Shown: positions 1,853-44,844 of the stretch, piece after piece
Position numbering within the stretch: the stretch's first letter is position 1
Layout of the letters: each line of letters begins with the position of its first letter
DNA from: Asanoa iriomotensis
GTDB lineage: Bacteria; Actinomycetota; Actinomycetes; Mycobacteriales; Micromonosporaceae
DNA: 64,000 nt
NCBI RefSeq assembly: GCF_016862515.1
Contig: NZ_BONC01000011.1
Location: 62,001-126,000, forward strand
Reading direction: 5' to 3'
Made by a program: the position numbers and the translations under genes
Notes under the pieces: model-generated
Databases searched by the model: none
The model's input: only the letters and a program-made list of their open reading frames with translations
Told to the model about the DNA's origin: nothing

Positions 1853-1881
1853 AGACTACCAGTTACCCATTGACGGGCCAA
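1853..1881 (-). promoter_or_regulatory. Candidate rpsT promoter
   Basis: On the minus strand TTGGCC (1881-1876) and TAGTCT (1858-1853) are separated by exactly 17 bp, upstream of rpsT. The -35 box overlaps the end of the MerR-HEAT gene. This would give a 5' untranslated region of about 65 nt before the GTG. Boxes were picked by eye. Confidence 0.45.
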
Positions 1882-2867
1882 AACGCCCCTCGCCGGCGCT
1901 CGAGTGTGTAGGCCGCGGTGACGGCGACCACCCGGTCCGCGTCGTGGGAAAGATCGTCGAGAGCGCGCGCCGCGCTGTCCCCCGGGATGTCCGCGAGCGC
2001 CTGTGCCAGCCGGCGACGTGCCGGCGCCTCCTGGTCGGCGAGGGCGGCCACGAGGCTCGCGGCGATCCGGTCCGCGGACGCGGGATCGCCGGCCAGTGCG
2101 CCCAAGGCGTCGGCCGCGTCGGCATCGGCCTTCTCCTCGACGATCATCCGGATCAGCGGCGGGATCGCCTCCGGTGCGCCACGGGTGCCGAGCGCCAGGG
2201 CGGCGGTCGTGCGCACGTCGGCGTCGGCGTGCGCGAGCGCGCCCCGCAGCAGGTCGGTCGCCGCCGCGCCGGGGATCTCGGCGATGCAGTGGACGGCCCG
2301 TTTGCGCCTTTGGGGCGTGGGCGCGCGCAGGCCCTCGGCGAGCAGGGCCAGCGCGTCGTCGCCGGACCGCGCGAGCGCCCAGCGGAGGGCGCCGGCGACG
2401 TTCGGGTCGGTCTCGCCCAGGGCCGCCTCGACCAGCGCCGCCACGGGCACGTCCGAGGTCAGCGCCGCTCGCTGGCGCCGCCCGGCGTCGTCGGACCCCA
2501 GGGCGTGGAGGAGGGCGACGGTCTGGAGGACGTCCGCCCAGTCGCCCGGTTCGGCGTCGTTGATCCGGTCGAGCCGGGTGAGCAGTTCCTGCTGCGCCGC
2601 GATCCGCTCCCGCGTCTGGCGGATGAGGTCGGCCACGAGCCCCGCGGGCGTGAATCCGGGATCGTCGAGCGCGCGCCCGACGTCCCGCAACGACAGCCCC
2701 AACGACCGCAGGCTCTCGACGTGAAAGATCCGGCGGATGTCGGCGCTGGAGTACTCGCGGTAGCCGCCGTGCGTGCGCCCGGTCGGCCGCACCAGCCCGA
2801 GCGAGTCGTAGTGCCTGAGCATCCGCGCACTGACCCCGGACCGCCGCGCCACGTCACCGATCAACAC
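1863..2867 (-). CDS. MerR family transcriptional regulator with C-terminal HEAT repeats
   Basis: 334 residues. The N-terminus is a MerR winged helix ([20 protein letters not shown], then [13 protein letters not shown]), followed by a dimerising helix to about residue 115. Instead of a small effector domain, residues 120-334 are alpha-helical HEAT/PBS-lyase-type repeats (for example [25 protein letters not shown]). MerR proteins twist promoters with overlong spacers; a protein partner or protein-like ligand is plausible for the HEAT part, but this is inference. GTG start at 2867, 3 bp after the stop of the HEAT gene, with GGAAGGG as ribosome site inside that gene's end. The two genes form one operon, preceded by a MerR-type operator at 3561-3577. 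Confidence 0.85.
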
Positions 2868-2870
2868 CGT

Positions 2871-3530
2871 CTAAGACCCTTCCTGGCTGGTGGTGCCGAG
2901 TGCCACGATCCGATTCGCCTCCTCGATCGCCAACTCGAATCCGGCGTCCGGGTCGCGTGAGAGCCGTTCCGTCGCGATCGCGTGCTGCCGCACCCGCGGG
3001 TCGGCGTCGGTCATCGCGGCGCGCAGGGTCGGCATCGCCGCCTCGCCCAGCGCGACCAGCGCCCGGCTGAGGCTCAACCGGGTTTCGCGGCCGCCGCGCC
3101 CTAGCTGTGTCGCCAGCGTCCCTGCCAGTGCGGGCTCGGCACTGTTAGGCACCAGCGCGACGGCCGCCCGCCAGGCACTCCGCGCCACCTCGTCGTCGGC
3201 ATCGGTGAGCAGCGCCGGCGTGATCGCGGGCCAGGCCCGCCGATCCCCGATCTTGGACAGGGTGTGCAAGGCCTGACTCCGGGCCTGCGGCCGCGCACGC
3301 CGGAGCTCGGCGACGAGCTTGGGGATGGTCGCCTCCGGCGCGTGGCGGGTGAGCGCCCAGGTGAGCATCTCGCGCACGCTGAACTCGCTCTCGACCGCAC
3401 ACCGCTCGACGAGCTTGTCGACCAGCCGCGGATCGGGTGCCGTGCCCACCGCCATCGCCGCCCGCAACCGCACCGACGCGCTGCCGTGCTCCAGCGCCCG
3501 GCAAGCCCGCGCCGTTTCCGGGTCCTCCAT
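2871..3530 (-). CDS. HEAT repeat protein
   Basis: 219 residues composed of successive helical pairs of the HEAT type (SASVRLRAAMAVG, DDEVARSAWRAAVALV, DPRVRQHAIATERLS), with no enzyme motif, signal peptide or membrane segment. HEAT solenoids are protein-binding scaffolds. A GTG at 3551 is also in frame, but GAGGAGGT at 3545-3538 sits 7 nt before the ATG at 3530 and decides the start. First gene of an operon with the MerR-HEAT regulator. The shared repeat architecture suggests the two proteins act together, perhaps one titrating the other; function is unknown. Confidence 0.8.
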   Translation of the reverse strand: MEDPETARACRALEHGSASVRLRAAMAVGTAPDPRLVDKLVERCAVESEFSVREMLTWALTRHAPEATIPKLVAELRRARPQARSQALHTLSKIGDRRAWPAITPALLTDADDEVARSAWRAAVALVPNSAEPALAGTLATQLGRGGRETRLSLSRALVALGEAAMPTLRAAMTDADPRVRQHAIATERLSRDPDAGFELAIEEANRIVALGTTSQEGS

Positions 3531-3551
3531 GGCGACCACCTCCTCGGCCAC

Positions 3552-3582
3552 AGCGAAGGGCTTGTCACCGTGTCAAGGTCAA
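3552..3582 (-). promoter_or_regulatory. MerR-type promoter/operator of the HEAT-MerR operon
   Basis: CTTGTCACCGTGTCAAG (3561-3577) is an imperfect dyad, arms CTTG-CAC/GTG-CAAG with one mismatch. On the minus strand it lies in the spacer between TTGACC (3582-3577) and a weak TTCGCT (3557-3552), which are 19 bp apart. A dyad inside an overlong 19-bp spacer is the usual layout of MerR-controlled promoters, so autoregulation is likely. The -10 box is poor, which fits an activator-dependent promoter. Confidence 0.5.
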
Positions 3583-3592
3583 GCCTGGCGAA

Positions 3593-3644
3593 AGGAACGG
3601 TCCGTTCCTAACGCTTTCGGCAGAGGAACGGTCCGTTCCTAACG
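3593..3644. repeat. Two direct copies of a palindromic repeat (GGAACGGTCCGTTCC core)
   Basis: AGGAACGGTCCGTTCCTAACG occurs at 3593-3613 and again at 3624-3644, 31 bp apart. Each copy contains a 15-nt palindrome around a central T. The same GGAACGGTCCGTT core recurs inside the large hairpin at 44792-44844. Spacing and position upstream of the HEAT-MerR promoter allow either a protein-binding site or a dispersed intergenic repeat; recurrence 41 kb away favours the latter. Confidence 0.75.
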
Positions 3645-3662
3645 TTCGGGCAACGCGAACCC

Positions 3663-3990
3663 GGCGGCATGGCGAAGCGGAGCGTTGGCAGGCGGAAGTG
3701 CCCTGAACAAACCCCCGCTGTTGGTCTTGGATGCAGCGGACCGTCACGGCTCGCGCGCTCAGCACGGCGGACGTTGGTAAAACATCGCTGCTCCAGCAGC
3801 AATCGATTACCACGATCGCCGCCGCCCGCCGAGTACGGCGACCGCCCCCGGGCCGACCTCGTTCGCGGAAGCGAACGGGCGGAGTGGCGTTGCTGCCTTG
3901 GCAGCATCCTGTCTGATGCCAACCAGCCGCGGACCTGGCAGCGAAGCGGTGACCGGCGGGAGCGACGGTCCGGACCACCGCGGGCCCGGG
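3663..3990 (+). repeat. Intergenic repeat element, copy A (hairpin-centred)
   Basis: This non-coding stretch matches, in the same block order, the reverse complement of 33028-33312. Shared blocks are: GGCGGAAGTGCCCTG...CAA (about 3690); GGCGGACGTTGGTAA (3766-3780); a 36-nt hairpin at 3776-3811 with a GCTGCT/AGCAGC inner stem and GGTAA/TTACC ends; and GGACCTGGCAGCGAAGCGG...CCGGCGGGAGCG...GCGGGCCCGGGA (3930-3990). Copy A carries about 95 bp extra after the hairpin, including a second perfect hairpin TGCTGCC-TT-GGCAGCA (3891-3906). No protein is encoded. The stretch from 3990 to 4089 shows nothing recognisable. Confidence 0.75.
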
Positions 3991-4089
3991 ACCGGCTTCT
4001 GCTCCATGCTTGGCAATTGATCGCCACGTGGCCGGTGCAGCCGCCCGGCGTTGCCGGCCGGCCAGCTGAGTCCGCCCTCCGGGGAGGTA

Positions 4090-5076
4090 TCAGCGCCAGC
4101 CCTGGCGGGCTGACAGCCAGGACAGGGCCGCCTCGCCGTGCCAGCGTTGGTGTTGGCGGACCGTTGGGGCCGCGTCGTTGGGTGGGGCCGCGGAGCGGGT
4201 CAGGAAATATCCGGACAACGCGGCCAGGGCCGCGTCGAGGGCGCCCGTCGGCACGCCCCTCGCCGTCGGGTGGGTCGACCAGAGGGCGTCCGCGTCCAGG
4301 CCGCCCGCGTGGGCCGTGATCAGCAGGACCGCCGTGTCGAACCAGGCCGGGCCGTGGCAGAGCCAGTTCCAGTCGCAGAGCCAGGCCTCGCCCGACGCGT
4401 CGATGATGACGTTGTCGAGGCGCAGGTCGCAGTGCATGAGGTTCGGGCCGGTCGGTGCGACCAGGGACGGCGCCGACGCTTCCAGGGCGGCGAGCGCGGC
4501 CAGGCGGGGGCGCGCCGGCTCCGCCCACTCGGGCATCGGCACGCGGCCCTCGGCGATCCAGCGCCACCCGCCGAACTCGTCGGCGACCATCGGCGCGAGC
4601 GCCGGCAGCTTCAGGTCGAGCAGGGCCCGCGTCGGGTGGGCGAGGGCCGCCGCAGCCTCGGCCCAGGCGTCCAGGGTGGCGGCCAACTCCGCCTCCTGCC
4701 ACGGCAGCGTCGGCGTCCGGCCGGGGACCACCGCCTCCGCGCACAGGACGAACCAGTCCGGCGTCGCCAGGGTCCAGAGCGGGCGCGGCGCCCGGACCGC
4801 CGCCGGGAGGGCGGCGGTGACCAGCGCCTCGTGGGCGTACCAGTCGCAAAGATGACGCTGGTCCGCGGAGCGCGCGGCCTTGACGAAGACCTGCTCCCCC
4901 GCGGCCGTCGTCAACACCGCGGCGAAGCCGCTGGTGAAGCCCGCTCCGGCAGTCCGCGCGCCGACGACCGGAGAGGCCAGCCGGTCCTCGATCGCGGCCC
5001 GCATGCCGGCGGCCAACGACTCCCACGGCGGCCGGACGGCGGTCGCGTCGTAGGCGAAGGGCGGGGTCGCGAGCAT
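4090..5076 (-). CDS. Aminoglycoside phosphotransferase (APH) fold kinase
   Basis: 328 residues. The C-lobe carries the APH-family catalytic loop [12 protein letters not shown] (HxDxxxxN) and the metal-binding aspartate in WLCDWNW; the N-lobe lysine is probably the one in [14 protein letters not shown]-fold kinases phosphorylate antibiotics, sugars, choline or homoserine with ATP in the cytosol; the substrate here is unknown. The frame extends to 5181 but that would run through the lepA start; the ATG at 5076 matches where homology-like sequence begins. It is divergent from lepA (98 bp between them) and ends next to repeat copy A. No Shine-Dalgarno is evident. Confidence 0.75.
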
Positions 5077-5174
5077 GGCGGCAATCGTGCCGGACCGCTC
5101 CACGCCGGGGCCACCCAATTGGACATGGGAACATAGAGAGCGACCTTGACCACCGCCGATCAGAACGGACCACC

Positions 5175-7055
5175 GTGCCACCCACGCTCGACCGCGGCGC
5201 CAACCTGCCCGGCGCTACCGACCCGGTGCGCATCCGCAACTTCTGCATCATCGCCCACATCGACCACGGCAAGTCGACGCTGGCCGACCGGATGCTGCAG
5301 CTGACGGAGGTGGTCGACCCACGGCAGATGCGGGCGCAGTACCTGGACCGGATGGACATCGAGCGCGAACGCGGCATCACGATCAAGTCGCAGGCGGTCC
5401 GGATGCCGTGGACCGTGCGCGCCGGCGAGCGGGCCGGTGAGCAGGCCGTGCTCAACATGATCGACACGCCCGGCCACGTCGACTTCACCTACGAGGTGTC
5501 CCGCAGCCTCGCCGCCTGCGAGGGCGCCGTGCTGCTGGTCGACGCCGCGCAGGGCATCGAGGCGCAGACGCTGGCCAACCTCTACCTGGCGCTCGAGAAC
5601 GACCTCCACGTCATCCCGGTGCTCAACAAGATCGACCTACCGGCGGCGCAGCCCGACAAGTACGCCGAGGAGCTCGCGCACCTGATCGGCTGCCAGCCCG
5701 AGGACTGCCTGCGGGTGTCCGGCAAGACCGGCGACGGCGTACCCCATCTGCTCGACGAGATCGTCCGGCAGTTCCAGCCACCGGTCGGCGAGCCCGACGC
5801 GCCCGCCCGGGCGATGATCTTCGACTCCGTCTACGACATCTACCGCGGCGTCGTCACGTACATCCGGGTGATCGACGGCAAGATCGAGGCGCGCGACCGG
5901 ATCAAGATGATGTCCACCGGCGCCGCGCACGAGCTGCTCGAGCTCGGCGTCATCTCGCCCGAGATGGTCAAGTCGTCGGCGCTCGGCGTCGGCGAGGTGG
6001 GCTACCTGATCACCGGCGTGAAGGACGTCCGCCAGTCCCGGGTCGGTGACACGGTCACGCTCCAGAGCCGGCCGGCGACCGAGGCGCTCGGCGGCTACAA
6101 GGACCCGAAGCCGATGGTCTACTCGGGCCTCTACCCGATCGACGGCTCCGACTACCCGGCGCTGCGCGACGCGCTCGACAAGCTCAAGCTCAACGACGCC
6201 GCGCTGGTCTACGAGCCGGAAACAAGTGCCGCGCTAGGGTTCGGCTTCCGCGTCGGCTTCCTCGGCCTGCTCCACCTGGAGATCATCCGGGAGCGGCTGG
6301 AGCGCGAGTTCTCGCTCGACCTCATCTCGACCGCGCCCAACGTGGTCTACCGGGTGCTCATGGACGACGGCGAGGAGCTGACGGTCACCAACCCGAGCGA
6401 GTTCCCGGCCGGGAAGATCGCCGAGGTGTACGAGCCGGTCGTGCGCGCGACCGTCCTGACTCCCAACGACTACGTCGGCGCCGTGATGGAGCTGTGCCAG
6501 GGCCGGCGGGGCTCGCTGCTCGGCATGGACTACCTGTCGACCGACCGCGTCGAGCTGCGCTACACCCTGCCGCTCGCCGAGATCATTTTCGACTTCTTCG
6601 ACCAGCTCAAGAGCCGCACCAAGGGCTACGCGAGCCTCGACTACGAGCCCTCCGGCGAGCAGAAGGCCGACCTGGTCAAGGTCGACATCCTGCTGCACGG
6701 CGAGCCGGTCGACGCGTTCAGCGCGATCGTGCACAAGGACAAGGCCTACAACTACGGCGTCAACATCGCCTCCAAGCTGCAGAAGCTGATCCCCCGGCAG
6801 CAGTTCGAGGTGCCGATCCAGGCCGCGATCGGCAGCCGGGTGATCGCCCGCGAGACGATCCGCGCGATCCGCAAGGACGTGCTGGCCAAGTGCTACGGCG
6901 GTGACATCACCCGCAAGCGCAAGCTGCTCGAGAAGCAGAAGGAAGGCAAGAAGCGGATGAAGATGGTCGGTCGCGTGGAGGTGCCGCAGGAGGCCTTCAT
7001 CGCCGCGCTGAGCACCTCGGACACCGCGGCTGCCGACAAGGCTGCCAAGAAGTGA
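5175..7055 (+). CDS. lepA: Translation factor LepA (EF-4)
   Basis: 626 residues, including a short N-terminal extension typical of actinobacteria. LepA is a ribosome-dependent GTPase related to EF-G that acts in initiation and recovery of stalled ribosomes. GTPase motifs are intact: AHIDHGKST (G1), RGITIKSQ (G2), DTPGHVDF (G3), NKIDLP (G4). The LepA-specific C-terminal domain ends [16 protein letters not shown] followed by a lysine-rich tail. Start is GTG at 5175. The stop overlaps the start of the Nudix gene by one base, so the two are co-translated. Confidence 0.97.
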
Positions 7056-44791: not shown

Positions 44792-44844
44792 TTAAGGAAC
44801 GGTCCGTTATTAACGCATAGCGTTAATAACGGACCGTTCCTTAA
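44792..44844. terminator. Perfect 25-bp inverted repeat between convergent genes
   Basis: Arms 44792-44816 and 44820-44844 pair perfectly around ATA; outer part TTAAGGAACGGTCCGTTA, inner TTAACGC/GCGTTAA. It carries the GGAACGGTCCGTT core of the repeats at 3593-3644. It stands directly after the UbiA-type stop, and the TAA of the VOC gene is inside its right arm. It likely acts as a bidirectional terminator recruited from a mobile-type palindromic repeat. Confidence 0.85.

Follow-up and report, generated by a model that had tools for sequence, protein, structure and literature searches.

The two palindromes at positions 3593–3644 are best explained, at a probability of about 0.6, as a single copy of a REP-like repeat family, dispersed in Asanoa and able to form hairpins, that would have spread in the past, whose cores would be read by a trans-acting factor, and whose copies would have been homogenised species by species. 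Copies of the family are numerous, share one architecture and can fold; they lie mostly at gene 3′ ends and sometimes inside genes, and their core differs set-wide between species. We analysed the pair within the 64,000-nucleotide stretch of DNA that contains it (the window), in the whole genome of Asanoa iriomotensis, to which the window belongs (G000), and in five other Asanoa genomes (G001–G005). The features of the window are listed in Table 1.

Table 1. Features in the window discussed in the text (positions are those of the window)
Feature	Position	Strand	Remark
MerR-HEAT fusion gene	1863..2867	-	PF00376, PF13411, PF13646
HEAT-repeat protein gene, first gene of the operon	2871..3551 (start 3551 or 3530)	-	PF13646
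17-bp dyad CTTGTCACCGTGTCAAG	3561..3577	-	conserved upstream of the HEAT gene
TTGACC, -35-like hexamer beside the dyad	3582 to 3577	-	
Element, direct dimer form	3592..3644	+	contig coordinates C11:65592-65644
First 21-nt copy	3593..3613	+	named in the earlier note
Second 21-nt copy	3624..3644	+	named in the earlier note
Two 11-bp cores AACGGTCCGTT of the element	3596-3606 and 3627-3637	+	
16-nt linker TAACGCTTTCGGCAGA joining both cores	3609-3624	+	
APH-like gene (aminoglycoside phosphotransferase family fold), other flank	4090..5103	-	PF01636
Second family member, inverted form	44796..44840	.	facing cores 30 bp apart

The pair upstream of the HEAT-MerR operon

The pair consists of two copies of AGGAACGGTCCGTTCCTAACG at 3593–3613 and 3624–3644, which are identical at 21/21 nt (100%) and spaced 31 bp apart, as the earlier note had described. 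Each copy contains a 17-bp palindrome with one central base, AGGAACGG-T-CCGTTCCT. The distance from the pair to the HEAT start, given in that note as about 70 bp, is close to this value, at 42 bp for the GTG at 3551 or 63 bp for the ATG at 3530, which by eye is preceded by AGGAGG. With up to two mismatches, the core GGAACGGNCCGTTCC has four sites in the window, two of them exact and forming the pair, versus a mean of 0.76 in shuffled sequence. The same core does occur elsewhere, as the note had stated, in a second copy at 44796–44840 that is built differently. Two convergent genes flank this copy, which is 5 bp from the stop codon of one and overlaps the end of the other; its outer TTAAGG seems, by eye, to be the source of the TAA stop of the minus-strand gene. 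Unlike most copies, the pair itself is located upstream of a gene, and the nearest gene 3′ end, that of the APH-like gene, is about 448 bp away. No Rfam covariance model matches the element (positions 2500–5300, E up to 5), and the single weak match in this interval, at 3103–3161, lies away from it. Another dispersed repeat is located in the same spacer at approximately 3922–4004 and, among the matches listed, is found at many places in all five of the other Asanoa genomes.

The earlier note proposed that the two palindromes are sites at which the MerR-HEAT protein regulates its own operon, a reading suggested by their position upstream of the operon and their three-turn spacing. However, the same pair occurs at unrelated loci, as 44 like-built dimers in G000, a result that the note itself had set against its proposal. 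The pair is also missing upstream of all four other HEAT orthologues: the spacer between the HEAT and APH-like genes does not contain it in G003, G004 and G005, and the HEAT gene of G002, which is located elsewhere, likewise lacks it. No HEAT match is present in G001 among the matches listed. A different dyad is conserved instead, since the pattern CTTG.CAC..TGTCA.GGTCAA is kept in 5/5 aligned Asanoa HEAT upstream regions (3552–3582, minus strand). On these three grounds the pair is rejected as the MerR-HEAT operator, the probability of which we consider close to nil.

Operators of the MerR family are dyads near a promoter. The pair lies upstream of the conserved promoter-like region and is not conserved, whereas the dyad at 3561–3577 fits this layout better and probably is the operator of the HEAT-MerR operon. 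Together with the -35-like hexamer, the conserved dyad can be read as a putative MerR-type promoter; a scan with the sigma-70 consensus found no promoter in the 3561–3582 region. The element in the window sits just past the point at which the upstream conservation ends, and is therefore probably a bystander at the HEAT operon; it may nevertheless affect the HEAT promoter.

Copy number, architecture and relatives of the repeat

At least 50 places in G000 match a 121-bp query with E up to 0.001 (40 of 94 candidates scored), and the core GGAACGGNCCGTTCC with at most one mismatch has 83 sites in the whole of G000 versus 2 for the reversed pattern. An asymmetric dimer pattern, composed of two cores and the linker with up to two mismatches, occurs 44 times in G000, 29 times in G004 and 20 times in G005, and is absent from the other 38 genomes of the same search; the argument of the earlier note that the shared core points to a repeat element is thus borne out. 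A sequence-only model built on 22 dimers gives 128, 61, 6, 9, 99 and 61 matches in G000 to G005, respectively, which are not locus counts, since at most 150 candidates were scored per genome and both strands of inverted forms were counted. The strict AACGG monomer is found in 3 of 300 Micromonosporaceae genomes, all three of them Asanoa. The linker TTNNTAACGCTTTCCGCATAGGAA, with up to two mismatches, is present in 28 of these 300 genomes and in 8 of 44 genera, with reversed-pattern controls at zero, which indicates that the family is wider than the genus Asanoa. The linker pattern has no match in viral_contigs, and viral spread of the repeat is rejected on this basis. On the 7.96-Mb contig of G004, the 49 positions among the matches listed are distributed as 9, 9, 8, 8, 3, 2, 3 and 7 per Mb, without an interpretable pattern. 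We found no paper on this family in the open-access literature.

The elements are composed of two to four 11-bp palindromic cores, mostly 30–31 bp apart. We collected 157 element clusters from five species, each included only if two of its cores are 24–33 bp apart; some are direct dimers joined by a 16-nt linker, others are inverted dimers or composites of three or four cores, and a usual dimer has a length of about 53 bp. Among 214 adjacent core pairs, 187 are 30 or 31 bp apart: 158 have the linker and a spacing of 31 bp, by which this class is defined, and 29 have a spacing of 30 bp. The remaining 27 range from 14 to 73 bp, with 25, 29, 32, 33, 46, 48 and 73 all represented. Inward-facing pairs wider than 33 bp (n = 16) are found at 40–42 bp (11), 50–52 bp (4) and 73 bp (1). 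A phase test, from whose set two wider pairs (46 and 48 bp, not inward-facing) are left out, yields resultant lengths of 0.918 at a period of 10.4, 0.928 at 10.6, 0.921 at 11 and 0.81 at 12, and does not fix the period. The resemblance of the spacings to steps of helical turns is suggestive, as several pairs are orthologues and the loops may derive from few ancestors. The placement of both palindromes on one face of the DNA, which the earlier note derived from the spacing of about three turns, is accordingly compatible with the family as a whole (mostly 30–31 bp, with the wider inward-facing pairs mostly at 40–42 or 50–52 bp), to the extent that these lengths do not simply stem from a few ancestors.

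All six RNA folds computed, namely the element in the window on both strands, the copy at 44796–44840 and three four-core loci, give strong hairpins, with z between -5.1 and -13.3. The hairpin of the element in the window has z values of -5.3 and -5.1 on the two strands, and the 44796–44840 copy has a z of -11.1. In 31 of 47 inward-facing pairs, the two bases that adjoin the core on one arm are complementary to those on the other, versus a shuffled mean of 10.7, and none of 5000 shuffles is as high. We reject the reading of these hairpins as intrinsic terminators, because a T-run follows the element at only 3 of 314 ends; a terminator scan also found none at either copy in the window.

The repeat is an untagged REP-like family that lies outside the tagged REPs and the REPINs. 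REPs of the GTAG and CGTC super-families are described as short, high-copy palindromes whose dimers can form larger hairpins, and which adjoin the 3′ ends of convergent and unidirectional ORFs, with some intragenic copies (Di Nocera et al. 2013, PMC3733652); the text of that paper does not mention Actinobacteria. As in this description (PMC3733652), the Asanoa repeat is palindromic, of high copy number, dimeric, located at gene 3′ ends and sometimes intragenic. In contrast to the tagged REPs as described there, it lacks terminal GTAG or CGTC, has a different sequence, and its AACGG carriers have no match to a Y1 transposase (PF01797). In the 8 nt next to the outer edge of the core, counted over 314 ends, GTAG and CTAC each occur 0 times, CGTC 3 times and GACG 2 times.

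In REPIN-RAYT systems, two palindromes form one dispersed unit and the RAYT is a Y1 transposase. The Asanoa repeat shares the two-palindrome unit, but a RAYT was not found: PF01797 has no match in the three AACGG carriers (G000, G004 and G005), on which ground a RAYT/REPIN system is rejected, and likewise none in G002 and G003. The lone PF01797 match in the six Asanoa genomes (G001 C6:310197-310409, L064) is partial and has a TAA inside. Rickettsia palindromic elements are described in a MITE review as in-frame inserts of about 150 bp in protein genes, many of them intragenic (PMC10969869). The Asanoa repeat likewise enters conserved protein genes in frame, whereas its host is unrelated, its dimer measures about 53 bp and 14 of 157 copies are intragenic; the two are likened by description only (PMC10969869). 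Terminal inverted repeats, as in MITEs, are present in the inverted, three-core and four-core forms only, the ends of the direct dimer being unlike. We also reject the idea that distant inverted copies (G005 C10 and C68) bound an insertion sequence, since the intervals between them contain ordinary-looking ORFs by translation; by eye, no transposase was recognised in these two intervals of 1 to 1.5 kb.

Placement relative to genes and the concerted core difference

Gene positions were taken from our own ORF caller, trained on the window, in stretches chosen for holding elements. Of the 157 elements, 86 lie at convergent, 53 at tandem and 4 at divergent junctions, and 14 inside open reading frames; where these stretches have a junction without an element, it is convergent in 178 cases, tandem in 836 and divergent in 240. 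The element is within 15 bp of 183 of 225 neighbouring gene 3′ ends versus 7 of 61 5′ ends, and its median distance from the stop codon is 3–5 bp in the larger sets.

Ten of 92 clusters in G000 and G004 lie within long ORFs, two of the ten at the very C-terminus. Eight of the ten proteins were scanned with Pfam, one per orthologous pair being left out, and all eight have a match: carboxyltransferase, DsbD_TM (CcdA-like), MutL, GerE/LuxR, dihydroorotate dehydrogenase, asparaginase II, MFS and metallophosphoesterase. The CcdA-like gene is a clean case of insertion, with about 25 extra codons in G000 and G004 that are absent from G001, G002, G003 and G005. The empty CcdA-like site (L206–L209) reads GCAAGGTCCG or nearly so and by eye resembles a shortened element end, which may be chance or a footprint. 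In pyrD, the element occupies one loop in G000, and G003 has it there with the other core type; an apparent remnant is present in G001, and G002, G004 and G005 have other, longer stretches rich in glycine, alanine and proline. This candidate surface loop (L119, L197–L203) is very variable across Asanoa, with repeats in some species and low-complexity inserts in the rest. The pyrD-, mutL- and luxR-type genes have identical insertion points in species of both core types. No target duplication was recognised by eye at occupied and empty sites, where the flanks are too diverged.

The core is AACGGNCCGTT in three Asanoa species (G000, G004 and G005) versus AAGGGNCCCTT in three (G001, G002 and G003). 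Core positions 3/9 are C..G in 121/125 cores of G000 and 88/96 of G004 (5 of the 96 being G..C), and G..C in 119/122 cores of G001, 13/14 of G003 and 10/11 of G002. As AACGG queries had served to collect the loci of G000 and G004, we made a second count with a pattern that accepts C or G at each of the two positions. This open query returns C..G in 43/45 cores of G000 (the other two are C..C), in 23/23 of G005 and in 11 of 12 of G004, counted on the first 12 of the 49 matches listed; it returns G..C in 58/59 cores of G001 (the other one is C..C), 5/5 of G002 and 6/6 of G003. At the G004 site L178, both core types, AAGGG and AACGG, lie side by side.

The difference also holds at shared sites. 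In 31 cross-group pairs of orthologous dimers, drawn from 21 G000/G004 and 16 G001–G003 loci and not all independent, the 62 core comparisons comprise 54 CG to GC, 4 CC to GC, 3 GC to GC and 1 CG to CC; copies at the same site, some of them in genes, therefore differ as their host species do. The variable columns outside the core are more similar between orthologous copies (0.694) than when permuted (0.634), with none of 5000 permutations as high. Most of this excess comes from the two bases that follow core 2, whose state is probably tied to the architecture; once they are left out, the observed value is reached in 97 of 5000 permutations. With site-specific memory this weak, copies may have been replaced instead of having changed in place. 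Linker segments taken singly show no excess similarity in cross-group orthologous copies, and the linker variants also differ between species, as expected from homogenisation or species-specific bursts. In a tree of the six Asanoa from four aligned gene pieces, G001 and G003 group with a support of 100 and the other splits have 36 and 63; since only the former is well supported, the tree does not orient the core change.

Origin and possible role of the family

In the preferred reading, a mobility system would have spread the copies in the past, and those would have been retained mainly where they are least harmful. Each core would be the putative recognition site of a two-fold symmetric trans-acting factor, which could be a transposase or some other DNA-binding protein; the sets of cores, copies at shared sites included, would have been homogenised species by species. 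The core difference is symmetric and set-wide, which together with the spacing favours recognition in double-stranded DNA; pairing of the arms alone is insufficient, because it would not make all copies change alike. The repeat may also have a function at present. In a specific form of this idea, more than 100 helically phased cores at gene ends would bind one dedicated homodimeric protein, whose specificity shifted between AAGGG-CCCTT and AACGG-CCGTT, and all of the sites, old copies in genes included, would have followed; we regard this form as speculative and unlikely.

A purely selfish repeat, an untagged REP or MITE moved by some transposase and functionless today, would account for placement where insertion does least harm, for the in-frame survivors within genes and for the existence of empty orthologous sites. 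The species signatures would then be separate bursts of copies and the shared sites would be hot spots that were hit again or overwritten by conversion, with which the weak site-specific memory and the linker variants, species-specific as the cores are, agree. The identical pyrD, mutL and luxR points in both core types, however, would require that copies either re-inserted repeatedly at exactly the same place or underwent conversion; no transposase of the single family tested (PF01797) accompanies the repeat, and no target duplication is recognisable by eye in the diverged flanks. We consider this account possible, though less likely than the preferred one. A role in RNA, in which the elements would act mainly as bidirectional 3′-end hairpins that terminate transcription or shield the ends of mRNAs, draws on the strong hairpins of both strands and the median of 3–5 bp from stop codons in the larger sets, as well as on one orthologous convergent site (L091 versus L225) at which G001 has a rho-independent-terminator-like sequence and G000 the repeat. 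Yet by our own reading such a sequence is present at just 1 of about 10 empty orthologous sites, T-runs follow 3 of 314 ends, and the scan found no terminator at the two copies in the window. With 14 of 157 copies inside open reading frames, and one shared core state per set that arm pairing leaves unexplained, this role is quite improbable.

The homogenised REP-like family that we prefer carries a lesson for annotation, in that such palindromes should not be taken for private operators. Even if it is selfish, it is a REP-like family of an actinobacterial genus with in-frame inserts in genes such as pyrD. If the concerted core change reflects a trans-acting factor, the Asanoa species would preserve a natural record of changed DNA recognition with dozens of co-evolved sites, and the repeat would be a direct bait for whatever spreads or recognises REP-like repeats in the absence of a RAYT.
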